Of a DNA stretch of 35,697 nt, positions 10,002 to 35,182 are shown in pieces. Below the pieces are notes generated by a model. That model saw nothing but the letters and a program-made list of their open reading frames with translations, was not told where the DNA came from and searched no databases. Numbering within the stretch: the stretch's first letter is position 1; every line of letters begins with the position of its first letter. The position numbers and the translations under genes were made by a program. The stretch comes from Desulfuromonadales bacterium. Lineage in GTDB: Bacteria; Desulfobacterota; Desulfuromonadia; Desulfuromonadales; JACZKF01. The stretch covers positions 1 to 35,697 of the forward strand of contig JARFUG010000032.1 of NCBI GenBank assembly GCA_029289095.1, written 5' to 3'.

Positions 10002-10102
10002 GTAGCCAGGAGCCAGAATCCAGGAGCCAGTGGAAAATCAAAGCCAAAAGGATGATCATCTGGCTCCTGGCTCCTGGCTCCTGGCTACTGGCTACTGGAT
10101 TC
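10002..10102. repeat. Inverted heptad element between response regulator and nucleotidyltransferase (C)
   Basis: Six in-register copies of a heptad (tggctcc three times, tggctac twice, tggattc) fill 10061-10102. Inverted words (gtagcca, ggagcca, gaatcca, ggagcca) fill 10002-10029. The two arms can pair into a long hairpin with a spacer of about 31 nt. The element fills the gap between the response regulator stop (10106) and the nucleotidyltransferase ribosome binding site. Confidence 0.85.
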
Positions 10103-12522: not shown

Positions 12523-12634
12523 AGCCAGGAGCCAGGAGCCAGGAGCCAGGAGCCAGGAGCCAGGAGCCAGGAGCCCGGCGGAAGACGGAAGACAGAGGAC
12601 AGGAGCCCTTTTCTCCCAACTCCTGACTCCCAAC
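12523..12634. repeat. 112-bp tract of 16 in-phase heptanucleotides (E)
   Basis: Seven perfect agccagg units (12523-12571) are followed by agcccgg. The 7-base phase then continues through different words: cggaaga twice, cagagga, caggagc, an unrelated heptad, then tcccaac, tcctgac, tcccaac, ending at 12634. The phase is unbroken although the words change. It ends 8 bp before the radical SAM start codon, in the divergent gap with the histidine kinase. On the sense strand the last words are C/T-rich, so the gene has no visible Shine-Dalgarno. Confidence 0.9.
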
Positions 12635-12642
12635 CGATTCAT

Positions 12643-13560
12643 ATGAAACGTTATCGACTTTTCTCAGATCATCTGAAGCAACATTTCGGCGTCCGGGTTC
12701 ACAAGATCTCGGTCGATGGCGGTTTCTCATGTCCGAACCGCGGGGGGACTCGGGAGCTTGCCGGGTGCCTCTTTTGCGATCCGGGCGGGTCGGGGGCGGT
12801 GGGGATCGAGCGGCGCCTGGCGGTGAGGCAGCAGATCGAGCACGGCAAAGAGATCATGACGCGCAAGTACAAGGCGAAGAAATTTCTCGCCTACTTCCAG
12901 CCCTTCTCCAACACCTGGGCGGAGCCCGAGATTCTGCGCGCCCTTTACGACGAGGCCCTCGCAGTGCCCGATGTGGTTGGGCTTTCGGTCGGCACGCGCC
13001 CCGACTGCCTGCCGCCGCCCGTTCTCGATCTCGTCGCCGAATATCACCAGCGCACCTATTTCTGGCTCGAGCTCGGGCTTCAGAGCGTACACGACCGGAC
13101 GCTGGACTTTCTGCGCCGTGGGCACGACTACGCTGCATTTCTCCAGGCCTTCCACGGCGTCAGGCCGCGGGGAGTGCGCGTCTGCGTTCACGTCATCATT
13201 GGGCTTCCGGGGGAGAGCCGCGAGGAGATTCTCGTCACGGCCGATGAGATGGCGCGGCTCCGGGTCGACGGCATCAAGATCCACCTGCTGCACGTCCTTA
13301 AGGGAACCCCCCTCGGACAGATGTACGAAAAGGGAGATATTTCCGTTCTTGAGCAGGACGAGTACGTTTCCCTCGCCGCCGACTTCATCGAGCGCCTCCA
13401 CCCCGACACCCTGATCCATCGCCTCACAGGAGACGGGCCCCGCGACCTTCTCCTGGCGCCGCAATGGTCTCTCAACAAGTGGGAAGTCCTCAACGCCATC
13501 GACGCGGAATTAGAGAAGCGCGGAAGCGGGCAGGGGCGGACATTCAAGGATGAAGGATGA
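12643..13560 (+). CDS. Radical SAM protein, YhcC/TIGR01212 family
   Basis: The 305-residue product starts MKRYRLFSDHLKQHFG. It has the family's unusual iron-sulfur ligand spacing: C30 in FSCPNRGGT, then C42 and C45 in AGCLFC, in place of the standard CxxxCxxC. Downstream features typical of TIGR01212/YhcC are AYFQPFSNTW, GLSVGTRPDCLP, WLELGLQSVHDRTL, HVIIGLPGE (the GxIxGxPGE-like SAM region) and IKIHLLHVLKGTPL. The length fits the family at about 300. The reaction is not established for this family. It is predicted to use a 4Fe-4S cluster and SAM in the cytoplasm. The gene is alone on the plus strand and divergent from the histidine kinase. The start has no Shine-Dalgarno because the heptad tract runs up to it. 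Confidence 0.93.
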   Translation: MKRYRLFSDHLKQHFGVRVHKISVDGGFSCPNRGGTRELAGCLFCDPGGSGAVGIERRLAVRQQIEHGKEIMTRKYKAKKFLAYFQPFSNTWAEPEILRALYDEALAVPDVVGLSVGTRPDCLPPPVLDLVAEYHQRTYFWLELGLQSVHDRTLDFLRRGHDYAAFLQAFHGVRPRGVRVCVHVIIGLPGESREEILVTADEMARLRVDGIKIHLLHVLKGTPLGQMYEKGDISVLEQDEYVSLAADFIERLHPDTLIHRLTGDGPRDLLLAPQWSLNKWEVLNAIDAELEKRGSGQGRTFKDEG

Positions 13561-16050: not shown

Positions 16051-16135
16051 GGTGAACTCGACTTCACGCCACAGTCTCGCCGCTCCTCTGTGTGGGGCGA
16101 CTGTGCATCAGCGCAGTGAGGGTGAGCGGCATTGC

Positions 16136-16179
16136 GCTAAAATCAACGCCTTTTGGCGTACCGGATTACGTCTTTTAGC
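16136..16179 (+). terminator. Nested stem after the helicase gene
   Basis: GCTAAAA (16136-16142) pairs with TTTTAGC (16173-16179). Inside it, ACGCC (16146-16150) pairs with GGCGT (16155-16159) over a TTTT loop. It is about 86 bp past the helicase stop. It might be a terminator, although no clean T-run follows. The inner palindrome resembles CGCCATTTGGCG at 35548-35559. Confidence 0.35.
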
Positions 16180-16233
16180 TTGATTTCCCCTTCCGACTAT
16201 TCCCTTCAAGTAGCCGCCATCTTTCCTACCTGC

Positions 16234-16277
16234 GTGAATTTCTGAATAAAACTTCGAGGTTGAGAAGTTTAATTCAC
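16234..16277. promoter_or_regulatory. Inverted repeat, candidate operator or attenuator
   Basis: GAATAAAACTTC (16244-16255) and GAAGTTTAATTC (16264-16275) are inverted with one mismatch around an 8-nt spacer. GTGAATT/AATTCAC (16234-16240, 16271-16277) offers a competing outer pairing. CTTCGAGG (16252-16259) can also pair with CCTCGAA at 16303-16309. The arrangement suits either a dimeric regulator's operator or an RNA with alternative folds. Confidence 0.4.
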
Positions 16278-16436
16278 CCTGTTCATTTTTTCAGGATTTT
16301 GGGCCTCGAACTTGCTAGTGGTTGGTGAATCTTCTCCGCAAATCCCAGTGTCGATTCGTGCAGCGTCCATTTCGACTTTTACCGAATTGCACCGAATCCT
16401 GCGCAAAAAACGGGAAGAACAGATTGGTTTTTGGTA

Positions 16437-16500
16437 GGGGCGTCCGCGGCGAATAGGTCGCCGTCCAGCCCCCCCCTCTCTCACGGTGACGGGTCGTCAC
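16437..16500 (+). promoter_or_regulatory. GC-rich structured 5' leader of the decaheme gene
   Basis: GGGGC (16437-16441) pairs with GCCCC (16468-16472), enclosing CGGCGA (16447-16452) and TCGCCG (16458-16463) with a 5-nt loop. A second hairpin GTGACG-ggt-CGTCAC follows (16486-16491, 16495-16500; 3-nt loop, 6-bp stem). Both lie within 120 nt of the start codon, so they would be in the mRNA leader. It does not match the c-di-GMP-I riboswitch consensus that I know. Confidence 0.4.
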
Positions 16501-16540
16501 GGCTTTCATGTCGAGGCCCCGGAGGATCAACACCCTTTCA

Positions 16541-16546
16541 AGGAGG
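16541..16546 (+). promoter_or_regulatory. Shine-Dalgarno of the decaheme cytochrome
   Basis: AGGAGG, 10 nt ahead of ATG 16557. It decides this start over other in-frame codons. Confidence 0.8.
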
Positions 16547-16556
16547 CAAGTAAGTA

Positions 16557-18947
16557 ATGAGAGGAAGAAGTTTGCCGTACAAGTTGTTCATGGTCGGCCT
16601 GCTGGCCGGCGCGCTCGCTCTGAGCGGTTGTTCGGGCGACGATGGCTCCGCCGGTGCTCCCGGTCTGGAAGGGGCTCCTGGTGAGCCTGGTGAGCCCGGC
16701 GCACCCGGCGCACCCGGCGCTCCCGGTGCACCCGGCGCTCCCGGCGGGAGCACATCCATCGACGTTTTCGGCGCCCATGAGCGTACCCAGGTTGCCTGGA
16801 ACGTGACCGGCGTCCAGGCGACCGACACCGGTGCGGTCATCAACGTCAACATCAAGATCAACGGCGAGAACCGCAACGACTTCGACACCATCGCCCAGGT
16901 CGCCAGCTACATCCGCGGCACCAACCACGACGGCTATGGCTATGAGACTGCCAACGCCAGCGCGGCCACCCTCACAAGAGCGTCGGGCAACGGCAACTAC
17001 ACTATCACCGTCGTTCCTCCTGCGGGCTGGGGATGGACCCCCGGTACCGAGACGACCTGGCGCGTCAGGCTGAACAATCCTACCGGCTCCAGCGCTCTTA
17101 TTGTCGCCAACGCCACGGAAGATGGCGAATTCGTTCGCAATCTGGTCAGCGACCAGGCCTGCATCAACTGCCATGGCGACAACATCTTCACCGACGCCAT
17201 GGGCCTGCCCAGCAAGAACAAGAGCAACAACAACCGCCAGACCCGTTTCGAGCACATTCGCTCCTACGGCGTCGGCGCCTGCATCACCTGCCATTCGCAC
17301 CAGACCAGAGACAACCTGACCCGCTACGTTCACGGGATCCACAACAGCAGCTCCGGCCATCTGACCGGCAACTACGCCGGCAACATCACCATCAAGAACA
17401 ACTGGAACTACTCCGTCCGCTATCCCGCCTACATGGGCGACTGCTCGGCCTGCCATGACAGCCAGGAGAGACTTGACGCCGTTCTGTCCGCTCCGGTCAG
17501 CTACGAGACCTGCATGTCCTGCCACGGCGGCGCTTTTGCCAGCGCCAACAACACTCCCTGGGCCGGGTTCTCCAGCAACCTTCCCGGGAACCACCTGAGC
17601 TTCACTGCGGCAACCAACTGCGCCAACTGCCACAACGGCGAAACTGCAGGAGCAACCGTTGGCGACTACCACAGCGGCTACACCAACCGCGGTCTTGCGC
17701 AGAAGATCGCCGACGACTACTTCAAGATCGATGTCAAGGGCGTCGCCCCGACGGGAACCGCCAATCAGTTCGCCATGACCTGGGATGCCGTAAATCCCGC
17801 TACCAATGCTGTTTACAATGTGTGCGGTCCCAATACCGTGAACATCATGGGCACCGATCGCACCGTCACTTTCGCACCGATCGTTCGCCGCGCTTATTTT
17901 GAGCCGGGCGGTGACGACATCACCAACCGTGGCCTTGCCCACTCCAATGGCAACACTGGACAGGCTGGCGGAACTGGCGTCGTCAGCAATGTCTGTGATG
18001 CGACCACTGGCATCGTCACCACAACCTTCAATCTGGATGCCGGTATCGATGCCAACATTACTCGTGTGCTTGCCCTTCTCAAGCCTCAGGCCACCGTTTC
18101 AGGTCTGACCCTGCAGCAAGCTGGTCGGGTTCGCATCCCCGCCGTCTCCTACGCTTTCGATCGCGCCGACGGCAAGCACTCCCCCCGTCGCCAGCTTGTG
18201 GACAGCAACAAGTGTCTCTCCTGCCACGGCGCCGCTCTGTACAATCACGGCGCAGCGGGCGGTCGTTTCGACAACATCGATTCCTGCATCGCCTGCCACA
18301 ACCCCTCGGCGACGGATATCGGCCGTCGTCACCTCCTCTTCGACGGTATCAACGCATCCAACTCCTACGACGGCAAGGACGCAGAGTCCTTCAGCTTCGC
18401 CTACAACATGCACGCCATCCACAGTGCCGGGGCCACGAATGCCTTCTACGTGATCTATCGCAGCAACGGCATCTACGGCTACGGGGGCAAGGAAACCTCT
18501 CCGCGCAACTGGCCCAAGTACGAGGACGGCAAGATCAAGACCTATGTTGCCGCCGGAACCCAACCCTTCGGCGCAGGTCCCAACTCGACCGCCAGCCCGC
18601 CTGCTCACTACCTCAAGCAGGTCGATTATCCCCGTCCTCTGAAGGACTGCACCGCCTGCCACTTTGAAGGTGCATTCGATCTGCCGGACCAGACCAAGGC
18701 GACCGCCATCAGCATCAACGCGCCCGCCCCGGCGACTGCAAGCGCCGCTCAGAACCAGAATCTGGCCACCCTCATGGGTCCGGCTACCGCATCCTGCATG
18801 AGCTGCCATCAGTCGAATGACCGCTTCGTCCAGGCTGTCCTGCGCGACCATGCGTTCCGCAACGGATTCGCTCCTGAGGTTCTCCCCAGCGGCAAATCCG
18901 GAATTCTCGATCTTCAGAGGATCGAAACCTGCATCATCTGCCACTAA
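16557..18947 (+). CDS. OmcA/MtrC-type decaheme c-type cytochrome lipoprotein with collagen-like stalk
   Basis: The 796-residue protein has a lipoprotein signal peptide with lipobox LSGC (acylated Cys25). A collagen-like G-x-y stretch (residues 30-62, 11 triplets, mostly GAP) follows, then a beta-rich domain (about 65-200). Ten CxxCH heme sites start at residues 202, 242, 296, 319, 355, 553, 577, 698, 747 and 792. They form two pentaheme groups separated by about 200 residues without heme, as in the four-domain MtrC/OmcA fold. The last heme motif is the very C-terminus. It is predicted to be an outer-membrane, cell-surface electron carrier reducing extracellular acceptors. In such systems a porin and a periplasmic cytochrome feed electrons through the outer membrane; neither is in this window. 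The gene is monocistronic: leader of about 500 bp, strong Shine-Dalgarno, terminator 40 bp downstream. Confidence 0.93.
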   Translation: MRGRSLPYKLFMVGLLAGALALSGCSGDDGSAGAPGLEGAPGEPGEPGAPGAPGAPGAPGAPGGSTSIDVFGAHERTQVAWNVTGVQATDTGAVINVNIKINGENRNDFDTIAQVASYIRGTNHDGYGYETANASAATLTRASGNGNYTITVVPPAGWGWTPGTETTWRVRLNNPTGSSALIVANATEDGEFVRNLVSDQACINCHGDNIFTDAMGLPSKNKSNNNRQTRFEHIRSYGVGACITCHSHQTRDNLTRYVHGIHNSSSGHLTGNYAGNITIKNNWNYSVRYPAYMGDCSACHDSQERLDAVLSAPVSYETCMSCHGGAFASANNTPWAGFSSNLPGNHLSFTAATNCANCHNGETAGATVGDYHSGYTNRGLAQKIADDYFKIDVKGVAPTGTANQFAMTWDAVNPATNAVYNVCGPNTVNIMGTDRTVTFAPIVRRAYFEPGGDDITNRGLAHSNGNTGQAGGTGVVSNVCDATTGIVTTTFNLDAGIDANITRVLALLKPQATVSGLTLQQAGRVRIPAVSYAFDRADGKHSPRRQLVDSNKCLSCHGAALYNHGAAGGRFDNIDSCIACHNPSATDIGRRHLLFDGINASNSYDGKDAESFSFAYNMHAIHSAGATNAFYVIYRSNGIYGYGGKETSPRNWPKYEDGKIKTYVAAGTQPFGAGPNSTASPPAHYLKQVDYPRPLKDCTACHFEGAFDLPDQTKATAISINAPAPATASAAQNQNLATLMGPATASCMSCHQSNDRFVQAVLRDHAFRNGFAPEVLPSGKSGILDLQRIETCIICH
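16644..16742 (+). repeat. Collagen-like G-x-y coding repeat
   Basis: Eleven consecutive Gly-x-y triplets (residues 30-62 of the decaheme protein), with the last five all GAP. The underlying 9-bp DNA unit (ggcgcaccc and variants) is nearly identical from copy to copy, so the tract could vary in length by slippage. It sits immediately after the lipid anchor and would form a stalk or trimerise. Confidence 0.9.
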
Positions 18948-18986
18948 AGAGGCAGGAAAAGCCTAGATTGCAATGACCTAAAATAT

Positions 18987-19015
18987 GGCGGGCCCTTGTG
19001 GCCCGCCTTTTTTTT
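18987..19015 (+). terminator. Intrinsic terminator of the decaheme cytochrome
   Basis: GGCGGGCC (18987-18994), a 5-nt loop and GGCCCGCC (19000-19007) are followed by eight T (19008-19015). This is a textbook rho-independent terminator 40 bp after the stop. Confidence 0.95.
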
Positions 19016-19133
19016 CATCATTCTGCTTATCTGGTTTGATTCAGCTTGGGCGACCATTCGGGAATAAGGACTGGCAGGCTTGAAGCATTCTTTTTCCTGA
19101 ATAGAACGAATCTTCCGCAGATTCCAAAAATAT

Positions 19134-19256
19134 CCCCTTCCCGAGAAGGGGTAAGGTGAGGCGTATTTTCTCCCCTCCTATTTTAGGAGGGGCTGGGGGT
19201 GGTAAGGTCTTCTTGATCTCTACCACCCCCCGCCCCCCTCCTGATCCAGGAGGGGG
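19134..19256. repeat. Cluster of three G-rich palindromes, including copy 3
   Basis: Three stems occur in a row. CCCCTTC/GAAGGGG is at 19134-19151. CCCCTCCTA/TAGGAGGGG is at 19172-19192. CCCCCTCCTG/CAGGAGGGGG is at 19234-19256. The second and third are in opposite orientation: ggctgggggtggta follows the second and taccaccccccg precedes the third. So the whole 19172-19256 block can fold into one large cruciform. The third stem matches the 13573 copy. Confidence 0.85.
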
Positions 19257-19302
19257 AGAAGACCCATGCGGAAGATCAGTACTAATCGGGTTCTTTTTTC
19301 AT

Positions 19303-19395
19303 CACCAGGTCACCAAGAGCACCAAAGAAAAGATCAAAGACTCAATCTGGGTTTCTTGTGTCTTTGTGCTTTGATGCTCGATGTCTTGGTGGTGG
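19303..19395. repeat. Inverted 'caccaag' repeat
   Basis: The left arm (19303-19331; words caccaggt, caccaag, caccaaag) is complemented by the right arm (19351-19395; tttcttgtgtctttgtgctt, cttggtggtg). Intergenic repeats built from these words are common in many unrelated bacterial genomes, and their role is unknown to me. Confidence 0.65.
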
Positions 19396-19494
19396 CGTTT
19401 TGGTCACCATCAGGCTTGTCTGCGCGAAGGCGGGATTCGATGGAAAAAAAGGGGTGTGGAGGAAGGATCCGATCAGGCGTGGTCCGCTTCTGCG

Positions 19495-32335: not shown

Positions 32336-35182
32336 ATGCCAGGGAAGAAACTCTTACGATTAACCGCAGCGCTGCTCTCTGCAGCAATGCTCTGGGGCTG
32401 CGGCGGCGACTCCAGTTTCGATGTGGGGGGCGGGTCAAGCGCAGAGCCCCAACGTCTGGGAAGCAGATCCTGCATGATCTGCCACTCATCGGTTGTGACA
32501 ATGGACCTGTGGAACGGTTCGGCCCACGATTTCCATAATTCACTTACGGCCGGGTGTGAAGGGTGCCATGGAGGAGGTGAATTCCATCGCGGTCTTGGCC
32601 CGATTCCAGTGCCGTCACCGAGTCTCGTCCATTGCAGTCAGTGTCATGACCTGGCTACGCATGCCGGTGACGATCCGACCACAGCGGCTGCGATCGAAGG
32701 ATATGTGCTGGACAATCCCCAAGGAGAGGGCTGCCTTTCATGCCATTCCGCCAAGGATCCGCAAGTCAGGAACTGGAACCATAATCCGGCTCCGACCACC
32801 ATTCACCAGGAATGGGCCAAGTCGGCCCATGGCGGGTTCATCAAGATCGTCAAGGCCGATAACCCCGATGCTGCAGTCACCAGTGATATCGCACCTGGCT
32901 GGGTGAGATACAATTGGGATGCGGCAAACCGCGCTGACTGCCAGCGTTGCCATACGGCCACCGGCGCGATGAACTACCTCAATAACCCTGCAGTTTATGA
33001 ACCGGCAAACAACAATTTCAGCCATCTTTCCGGCTGGACGTCATCTGCCGGTTCGCCGCAGAACGAAATGCTTTACTGCTGGGGATGCCACAGCGATGTG
33101 GGCTCCGGCGAGCTGCGGAATCCGGGGGCATTGAACATCAGCCTCAGCAACAATGCCCAACTCATCTTCAATGACCTTGCGCACTCCAACGTCTGCGTTT
33201 CCTGCCACAGCGGTCGTGCAAGCGGCGAAAGCATCAAGAATCGCGCGGAGGATGATTTCGGCGATCTGAGTTTCATCAATTCCCATTATCTTCCCGCTGC
33301 CGGCACGGTATACAACAACATCGGTTATCACTATGACGGCCAGAGCTATGCTCAGGGGTTTCATAAAAACGTCGGTGCTGAGAACGGTTTCGCTACAGGC
33401 GCCGCGGGTTCCTGCGTTGCCTGTCACATGAGCGGCCCCGAACCTCACACCTTCCAGGCTTCGGTGGCCAGCACCTCCTGCGTCAATTGCCATGGCGGGC
33501 TGACTGAGCAGGTTCTCGTTGCTGTCAAAGACGAATTCCGCGTCGCCCTGGACGAGTTGAAGATCGCCCTGGAAGCGAGGGGGATCTACTACTATCCGGC
33601 ACATCCCTATTTCTTCAATGTCAGGGTCACGCCAGAAAACGCCGGGACGACGGCGGTGGCCGCCAATGCGTTCAGGAACTGGAACGGCGTGAACGTCGGC
33701 GCCGGACTGGAGCCCGTTACCGGAAAAGGCAAGGATGTGATGGGCGCAGCCTTCAACTACAACCTGCTCAAGCACGAGCCCGGCGCCTACGTTCACAACA
33801 AGCAGTACGCCCTGAAGCTGATCGCCGACTCCATCGACTTTCTTGCTGATGGCGCCGTCGACGGTCTTGGAATACCCGATGCCGTTACGGAGGTTATCAA
33901 CAGCACCCTCTTTGCCGACATGACCAGCCACGGCCCCGCTACGCTCGTCAACCCCAATGCCACCAACTGCAGCGTCTGCCACACTGCCGTGCCCCATTAC
34001 AACGGGACCAACGCCCAGTATTACCAGTTCCCAAATACCACCGCTTTCCTCAATGCCGAGGTCTCCTGCGGCCAGTGTCACGCCGGCGGAGATTTCGATG
34101 TGAATCGCGACATCCTTTCAGAATATGCTGAATCTCGACATGGCGCTGCCGTCAATATCCCAGGTCAGACCGCCGCCAATACAATCTGGCGCGGGGGCAA
34201 CACCACAAACGCCGGATGCGCCGTCTCCTGCCATGACAGCGGACAACTCATCCTCTTCCTGAGCAATGGAACCGCTCCGACTTCTAATATCGTCGGTACG
34301 ACCACAACCGGGAACACGCAACGAAAGACCTTGTCCTGCAACGCCTGCCATACCAGCCTGCTCACCGGGGCCGTCCGCACGCAGGCCAACGGGAGTGAGA
34401 CCGTAACGATCACGGTTCCAGGTTCCAACCCGCTTCTTTCCGCCACGTTCGCCAATTTCGGTTCGTCCCACGTGTGCGTCACCTGCCATAGTGCCGGCAG
34501 GGGTCAATGGGGCGCCTCCATCACCAGCGCCACGGTCAGCATCCCTGCGCCCCACGCGCTGCCCCAGGGTCTGACGTTGACCGGAAAGCTCGGCTACCAA
34601 TTCCCCGGACAGACATATCCTGTCGGTGCACATCAGGGGATCGGCGGCGCCGGCGGCCCATGCGTAACGTGCCACATGAGCGGCGATGCCGGTCATACCT
34701 TGAAGGCGGTTGACAAGAATACGATCGGCACGATCACTGCCGTCAACTTCGACACCACTGCGTGCCTCTCCTGCCATTCAGACATGGGTGTCGATAGGCT
34801 GAACGACGGCAAAGAGGCCTTCCAGGATGCCCTTGACGCTCTCATTGCGGCTCTGGCTGAGAAGGGGGTGACGGCCAATGCAGCTTTCAGCACCTTCACT
34901 TACAGGTCCAATGCCGGAACGAACCTGAATCTCACAAGTGCGGCTAACTGGAATACCTTCATTTCTGAACGTTATTCCACCGCTGATCCTCCGGTGGCCA
35001 GGCAGGACCTGGTCGGTGCGATGTTCAACCTGCGGATGTTCATGAATTCGCGCTACGATCGAGCCGCCTACGTACATAACTGGGAGCATGCGCTTACTCT
35101 GATTGCACATTCCATCGATCTTGTCGGGGATGGAGCCATCAACGGAACTCCGAACGTCGCCTACGACCTGCTGTCGCGTTAG
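32336..35182 (+). CDS. Multiheme c-type cytochrome lipoprotein, 15 CxxCH + 1 CxxxCH, internally duplicated
   Basis: The 948-residue protein has a signal peptide and lipobox LWGC (MPGKKLLRLTAALLSAAMLWGC). CxxCH sites begin at residues 46, 74, 100, 133, 202, 248, 287, 360, 382, 545, 578, 668, 714, 776 and 810. A CAVSCH (CxxxCH) site lies at 628. Residues about 247-512 and 667-935 are diverged copies of one module: four heme motifs spaced alike, a CVxCHMSG motif with HTF/HTL, and a heme-free tail. The tail reads DALxxLIxALExxG ... GAxFNxxxxxxxxxAYVHNxxxALxLIADSIDxxxDGAxxG. It is predicted to be an outer-membrane or periplasm-facing electron carrier. It is distinct from the OmcA/MtrC family. No porin partner is seen. 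AAGGAG supports the start, and it is transcribed alone between a long leader and a strong terminator. Confidence 0.92.
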   Translation: MPGKKLLRLTAALLSAAMLWGCGGDSSFDVGGGSSAEPQRLGSRSCMICHSSVVTMDLWNGSAHDFHNSLTAGCEGCHGGGEFHRGLGPIPVPSPSLVHCSQCHDLATHAGDDPTTAAAIEGYVLDNPQGEGCLSCHSAKDPQVRNWNHNPAPTTIHQEWAKSAHGGFIKIVKADNPDAAVTSDIAPGWVRYNWDAANRADCQRCHTATGAMNYLNNPAVYEPANNNFSHLSGWTSSAGSPQNEMLYCWGCHSDVGSGELRNPGALNISLSNNAQLIFNDLAHSNVCVSCHSGRASGESIKNRAEDDFGDLSFINSHYLPAAGTVYNNIGYHYDGQSYAQGFHKNVGAENGFATGAAGSCVACHMSGPEPHTFQASVASTSCVNCHGGLTEQVLVAVKDEFRVALDELKIALEARGIYYYPAHPYFFNVRVTPENAGTTAVAANAFRNWNGVNVGAGLEPVTGKGKDVMGAAFNYNLLKHEPGAYVHNKQYALKLIADSIDFLADGAVDGLGIPDAVTEVINSTLFADMTSHGPATLVNPNATNCSVCHTAVPHYNGTNAQYYQFPNTTAFLNAEVSCGQCHAGGDFDVNRDILSEYAESRHGAAVNIPGQTAANTIWRGGNTTNAGCAVSCHDSGQLILFLSNGTAPTSNIVGTTTTGNTQRKTLSCNACHTSLLTGAVRTQANGSETVTITVPGSNPLLSATFANFGSSHVCVTCHSAGRGQWGASITSATVSIPAPHALPQGLTLTGKLGYQFPGQTYPVGAHQGIGGAGGPCVTCHMSGDAGHTLKAVDKNTIGTITAVNFDTTACLSCHSDMGVDRLNDGKEAFQDALDALIAALAEKGVTANAAFSTFTYRSNAGTNLNLTSAANWNTFISERYSTADPPVARQDLVGAMFNLRMFMNSRYDRAAYVHNWEHALTLIAHSIDLVGDGAINGTPNVAYDLLSR

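Follow-up and report, generated by a model that had tools for sequence, protein, structure and literature searches.

The window, by which we mean the whole 35,697-nt stretch of Desulfuromonadales DNA analysed here, carries a gene for an OmcA/MtrC-like decaheme lipoprotein of 796 aa, in which a collagen-like tract lies between the lipobox and a ten-heme head. Its features are as follows.

16540-16546, plus strand: ribosome-binding site AAGGAGG, with the ATG 10 bases downstream (sequence)
16557-18947, plus strand: OmcA/MtrC-like decaheme lipoprotein gene, 796 aa (open reading frame, ATG start, profile matches)
16557-16628, plus strand: signal peptide to lipobox, LSG/C (sequence)
16629-16631, plus strand: codon of Cys25, the predicted lipidated cysteine (sequence)
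16635-16751, plus strand: collagen-like tract, 13 Gly-x-y triplets, residues 27-65 (sequence, shuffles, Pfam Collagen)
16695-16746, plus strand: tandem 9-bp repeat in the central tract, 5.8 copies, 88% matches (repeat scan)
16782-17126, plus strand: predicted beta domain I, about residues 76-190 (AlphaFold2 model; alignment with MtrC/MtrF/UndA from residues 75-82)
17151-17720, plus strand: predicted heme domain II, hemes 1-5, CxxCH at 17160, 17280, 17442, 17511 and 17619 (AlphaFold2 model, sequence motifs)
17724-18161, plus strand: predicted beta domain III, about residues 390-535 (AlphaFold2 model, alignment)
18189-18944, plus strand: heme domain IV, hemes 6-10, CxxCH at 18213, 18285, 18648, 18795 and 18930 (Pfam match, AlphaFold2 model, sequence motifs)
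18987-19007, plus strand: intrinsic terminator, 8 G-C pairs then T8 (terminator scan)

The gene is preceded by a good ribosome-binding site and followed by a strong terminator; a sigma-70 scan of positions 16051-19494 returned no promoter match. Because its neighbours are a UvrD-type helicase upstream and a TPR membrane protein on the opposite strand downstream, the gene appears to form a single-gene unit. At the N-terminus of the protein is a signal peptide that ends in the lipobox LSGC (residues 22-25). Elsewhere in the window, a 15-heme cytochrome (32336-35182, plus strand) has a lipobox (LWGC) and no Gly-x-y tract; it matches MtrC/MtrF domain II/IV with 61 bits, and elsewhere in the genome it matches only a cytochrome on contig C82, over short stretches. 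The window also holds a perfect 7-bp tandem array of AGCCAGG (7.6 copies, 12523-12575) ahead of a radical-SAM gene at 12643, and similar arrays lie upstream on either strand at 10004-10030 and 10060-10098.

The ten CxxCH motifs are arranged as five plus five (residues 202-355 and 553-792) around a strand-rich region at residues 390-535. Pfam PF22113 (MtrC/MtrF domains II/IV) matches with 124.3 bits against a cut-off of 30. The NCBIfam model for OmcA/MtrC decaheme cytochromes (TIGR03507) scores 171.3 bits (E = 3.1e-50), below its curated cut-off of 209.3, and we therefore leave the protein outside that curated subfamily, regarding it as a relative within the same structural family. An AlphaFold2 model computed from 34 sequences (mean pLDDT 73, pTM 0.75) matched MtrC in Foldseek with E = 6.9e-18, as well as OmcA, MtrF and UndA. 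VIA-align superposed residues 75-796 on these four structures with Z scores of 14-17 (rmsd 6.8-8.2, 508-558 residues aligned), namely 16.9 for MtrF (rmsd 7.1, 508 aligned), about 15.7 for MtrC (rmsd 6.8, about 535 aligned) and 14.1 for OmcA (rmsd 7.8, 553 aligned). The model and the profile matches thus support a decaheme lipoprotein with a predicted MtrC/MtrF/OmcA fold, and the decaheme head described in an earlier, sequence-only reading of this DNA holds up.

That reading had also correctly placed the last heme motif in the final five residues (792-796) and taken the terminal heme to be exposed. Of 65 relatives whose genes are complete at the 3' end, 7, counting the 796-aa protein, stop within two residues of the last CxxCH. 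Residues 794-796 have pLDDT values below 50 in the model, and only by analogy may heme 10 be called exposed. Two cysteines outside the CxxCH motifs in beta domain III, Cys423 (codon at 17823) and Cys480 (17994), are invariant in an eight-sequence alignment. In MtrC, flavin reduction is reportedly under the control of a cysteine pair (PMC9973256, available part), to which Cys423 and Cys480 might correspond.

Behind Cys25 and Ser26, two residues past the cysteine, the tract reads GDD GSA GAP GLE GAP GEP GEP GAP GAP GAP GAP GAP GGS, an uninterrupted run of 13 Gly-x-y triplets of the kind by which collagen-like triple-helical proteins are recognised. The sequence-only reading had counted 11 triplets directly after the cysteine; the tract itself stands, the count rises to 13, and Ser26 lies between. 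The in-register Gly run is 14 long when the lipobox Gly is included as the 14th; no run longer than 6 arose in 20,000 shuffles of the whole protein, and none longer than 11 when the Gly-rich stretch alone was shuffled 200,000 times. Pfam Collagen scored 27.0 bits against the protein (E = 3.9e-6, cut-off 27.2) and 35.2 bits, above the cut-off, for the same tract in a whole-genome scan; the NCBIfam Lcl model matched it weakly (11.5 bits, far under the family cut-off). When the protein was the sole query, a PDB search returned collagen-like fibres only, on the tract, and cytochromes surfaced with alignment profiles. In the AlphaFold2 model, residues 22-73 have 10-residue pLDDT means of 36-65, with no regular structure until residue 69. 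Together, these observations support a Gly-x-y stalk that links a lipid anchor to the decaheme head. An antisense frame over the tract (16538-16891, minus strand) likewise encodes Gly-Ala-Pro repeats and gives a false Collagen match, because units such as GGTGCACC are palindromic.

To place the tract in its family, we assembled 86 proteins; 53 duplicates had been removed, along with 6 proteins that have fewer than five CxxCH motifs. A lipobox was recognised by pattern in 73 of them. The 13 others were left out, although at least L073 and L078 show lipobox and tract by eye; some of the rest are clipped at a contig end or have a frame extended upstream. With a tract defined as at least 4 consecutive triplets starting no more than 12 residues from the lipobox Cys, 64 of the 73 relatives have one, and 53 have at least 6 triplets (median 8, maximum 39). 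The Gly-x-y stretch whose absence from orthologues was named beforehand as a refutation is therefore widespread. Nine relatives carry fewer than 4 triplets, so a long tract is not essential to the fold. Gly occurs at Cys+2, +5, +8, +11, +14 and +17 with frequencies of 0.75, 0.78, 0.73, 0.67, 0.68 and 0.64 (73 relatives, unconditional), and at the off-register positions between them with 0.03-0.24 in two family samples.

The tract was found in 30 of 33 proteins retrieved with the NCBI model, which show the same Gly period behind the Cys, and in 25 of 30 from the scan of named genomes. The profile that defined the family was made from an alignment with the tract included (A1), and the NCBI-model sample was also filtered with A1, which makes it a partial guard against bias. 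Non-heme lipoproteins of the same DNA showed no such Gly period; 28 were compared, two of the original 30 having been removed as family fragments. Among all 40 control lipoproteins, five carry at least 4 triplets (3 of 10 other multiheme and 2 of 30 non-heme proteins), and by eye these five (L053, L063, L022, L087 and L055) are family copies, fragments or multiheme cytochromes. Relatives with longer tracts also match the NCBIfam Scl1/Scl2 models, weakly and far below the cut-offs.

Across 136 genomes of the order, the Pfam Collagen model (PF01391) matched in 28, and the listed places amount by eye to 30 sites. At nine of these the tract directly follows the lipobox of a cytochrome lipoprotein; one of the nine (L137) is a fragment covering the N-terminus, with one CxxCH motif. 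The lipobox-tract arrangement was not seen in the contexts examined, which covered all of the other 21 sites but L140; several of these sites resemble phage-fibre proteins or short repeat ORFs without gene evidence. Within the window's own genome, only the 796-aa protein and a 75%-identical paralogue score above the Collagen cut-off; a match on contig C6 (20.0 bits, under the cut-off) falls in a 93-residue ORF with no lipobox in its context. A third OmcA/MtrC relative in this genome (L151, 4141-6975, minus strand, contig C82) scores above the TIGR03507 cut-off and has no N-terminal tract. Its linker lies towards the opposite end of the protein, where a proline-rich TEPPP repeat (partly masked) precedes an additional heme domain at the C-terminus. 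Directly upstream of the 75%-identical paralogue on contig C144 lie genes for a sigma-54 response regulator and for a dCache sensor kinase (L150, 8034-11822, minus strand); the decaheme gene in the window is without such neighbours. Eight relatives (L010, L011, L012, L014, L015, L026, L109 and L112) have 4-6 triplets followed by a conserved module like AYELAVENGFTGTEQEWLDSL. The module is also found in phages, with 125 matching records that include phiKZ, mostly at places annotated as tail proteins, and is possibly a stalk element shared by cytochromes and phage tails.

The number of triplets varies between close relatives. The 75%-identical paralogue has 12, exactly one fewer than the 796-aa protein, and triplet number differs in 17 of 19 pairs whose heads are at least 60% identical, pairs that share members and are thus not independent. 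The variable stalk length suggested earlier is supported in this way between paralogues and between species, the comparison covering one genome per species and 58 genomes in which the window's own is the only one from its genus. The accompanying claim of nearly identical 9-bp units applies to about six central units; over the whole tract 11 of 13 units are distinct, with a mean identity of 0.66 between adjacent ones. The Ala codons GCC and GCG account for 1 of 8 in the tract versus 63 of 90 in the rest of the gene (Fisher P = 0.002), a skew that fits local duplication of 9-bp units; the corresponding skew in Pro codons between tract and rest of the gene was not significant (P = 0.15). Identical tandem units are found in some relatives (GGTGCAACC five times, GGCGTTGAC four times) and none in others. 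In the 30 longest tracts, adjacent units share 0.47-0.83 identity, and in many of them nearly every unit is distinct. The x/y repertoires across tracts include GAP, GAT, GVD, GPT and GPQ. Slippage is a plausible source of the changes in tract length.

We also looked for the partners that would mark an MtrCAB complex. The window's genome gave no match to MtrB/PioB (PF11854) and none above the cut-off to the DmsE/MtrA type (TIGR03508; best 37.0 versus 192.2 bits), and neither an MtrB/PioB nor an MtrA/DmsE gene was found beside the decaheme gene. Therefore, we do not regard the protein as part of an MtrCAB complex of a known kind. Around MtrB/PioB matches, 8 of 16 stretches (L166, L167, L168, L169, L170, L171, L174 and L175) hold a decaheme gene with 8-11 triplets adjoining both the MtrB match and a ten-heme gene of MtrA size, these MtrA-like neighbours being identified by size and heme count alone. 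Among the other eight, the N-terminus is cut in L172, L173 and L177, no such decaheme gene lies near the match in L176, L178, L179 and L180, and L181 has one with 17 triplets that is not adjacent to the match.

Taken together, we propose that the tract is probably a length-variable tether, most likely acting as a single chain, on a surface decaheme cytochrome of the OmcA/MtrC type. The gene would encode an outer-membrane-anchored decaheme c-type cytochrome with the MtrC/MtrF/OmcA fold, expressed from an isolated single-gene unit like that of OmcA. Acylation of Cys25 would retain the cytochrome on the cell, and the tract would form the lipid-proximal tether, a polyproline-II-prone, low-complexity chain of about 39 residues that would reach roughly 11-13 nm if extended, going by the generally known rise per residue. 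Such a tether could keep the head with its ten hemes at a distance from the membrane, level with or past the polysaccharide layer, where the protein may take part in extracellular electron transfer. Throughout the family Gly recurs at every third position while the x and y residues drift, and the length shifts by whole triplets, which local duplication of 9-bp units would in part explain. What a single-chain tether does not readily account for is the exact threefold spacing of Gly, since a simple flexible linker requires no period of three.

That spacing is what a triple helix needs, and the sequence-only reading had suggested a trimer of decaheme heads. In this rival interpretation, three chains would wind their 13 triplets into a collagen-like triple helix with three decaheme heads, and thus 30 hemes, on each stalk. 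The strict period over 13 triplets and through the family speaks for it, as do Pfam Collagen scores at or near the cut-off (in alignment A2, 15 of 34 proteins, among them the 796-aa protein, match with E values of 0.001 or lower), the 17-39 triplets of some relatives, and the several short tracts that run into the module shared with phage tail proteins. However, no trimerisation domain was recognised adjoining the tract, and the y position is Asp in 133 of 519 triplets of the relatives, a residue that is weakly stabilising there without hydroxyproline. The tracts of 8-11 triplets beside MtrA-like and MtrB genes also argue against it, as the MtrCAB entry in the PDB contains a single MtrC chain. 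Soluble MtrC is described as monomeric in the available part of PMC7198977, where residues 1-26 were replaced, so that the tract may remain in the construct; the soluble chain as deposited seems to begin further on than this replacement implies, and we do not rest the argument on this construct. We consider a trimer, the main rival, unlikely for this protein, and trimerisation looks unlikely as the general role of the tract. A bolder version, in which true collagen triple helices form lipid-anchored masts with three ten-heme heads each across Desulfuromonadales, Woeseiaceae and others, the height of each paralogue's mast depending on how many 9-bp units it has (from about 5 to 39 triplets), strikes us as quite unlikely; if it held, one cell would show terminal reductases at several heights over its outer membrane.

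The tract could instead be an export or sorting signal, its C-[SE]-GDDG start and Gly-rich stretch being read by lipoprotein sorting or type II secretion and its length incidental. The start is strongly conserved, 33 of 73 relatives opening with the six residues CEGDDG or CSGDDG, and the run begins with Gly at Cys+2 in 48 of the 64 tract-bearing relatives. Such a signal would leave the 17-39 triplets of some relatives unexplained, and soluble Shewanella MtrF without residues 22-182, which span the tract by PDB-sequence numbering, was still secreted according to the available part of PMC6929479, which gives particular weight to the C-terminus for MtrF secretion. We judge a sorting signal improbable. 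A neutral expansion, in which 9-bp slippage lengthens a tolerated linker with no selection on length or register, would account for the tandem units, the skewed Ala codons and the differing lengths of close relatives. Most tracts have, however, diverged at the DNA level and differ in their x/y repertoires with Gly still in register, which suggests purifying selection on Gly and renders neutral expansion highly improbable. The single-chain tether therefore remains our preferred interpretation.

The protein is of a known kind, and the expanded collagen-like tether is a variant common to many uncharacterised relatives. We found no description of a collagen-like tract in OmcA/MtrC-type cytochromes in the open-licence literature, a scope with most subscription papers and all of bioRxiv outside it. 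In the available parts of these sources, the PgcA paper uses collagen only as an analogy for a proline-rich backbone (PMC5732950), PMC12304082 treats the lipid anchor and not the tract, and PMC5244752 and PMC6302416 contain nothing relevant to the tract. The lipid anchor is missing from soluble constructs, and the aligned parts of the solved structures do not include the tract, which may explain the absence of comment in the literature searched. The distance of a terminal reductase from the outer membrane, and whether it stands alone or bundled, bears on how it reaches minerals or electrodes through the polysaccharide coat. The tract is present in most OmcA/MtrC members sampled, with a lineage-specific length, and 4-5 triplets are already there in the well-studied Shewanella proteins; triplet number thus offers a simple handle on reach, docking and oligomeric state.

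Among known systems, Shewanella oneidensis OmcA (PDB 4lmh) shares with the 796-aa protein a decaheme head of the same fold and a short N-terminal Gly-x-y tract in its PDB sequence (GGSDGKDGEDGKPG, as for UndA). It differs in having about 4 triplets instead of 13, in an identity of only about 16% in the structural alignment, and in its lineage, a close relative of the window's protein (L038) coming from a Desulfuromonadales MAG. OmcA also lies outside mtrAB operons (PMC7096707, available part), and since no MtrCAB partners were found here, we read the protein as an OmcA-like tethered terminal reductase. MtrC, by contrast, is docked to the MtrAB porin-cytochrome, and the same has been proposed for MtrF (available parts of PMC7198977 and PMC7096707), while the window's genome is without an MtrB/PioB match. 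MtrC and MtrF (PDB 4lm8, 6r2q and 3pmq) are otherwise alike in fold (Z 15.7-16.9), in their five-plus-five hemes and in a lipobox followed by CGGSDGxDGxPGEPG, the PDB sequences reading ACGGSDGDDGSPGEPG behind the signal peptide of MtrF and GCGGSDGNDGNPGEPG in S. baltica MtrC. The aligned parts of the solved Shewanella structures begin at residues 45-51, past the tract, which is therefore probably not ordered in them. The collagen-like surface proteins Scl1/Scl2 and Lcl carry a Gly-x-y tract near their anchoring end, as the 796-aa protein does; unlike in these, the head behind its tract is a multiheme cytochrome, and a trimeric state is hypothetical.
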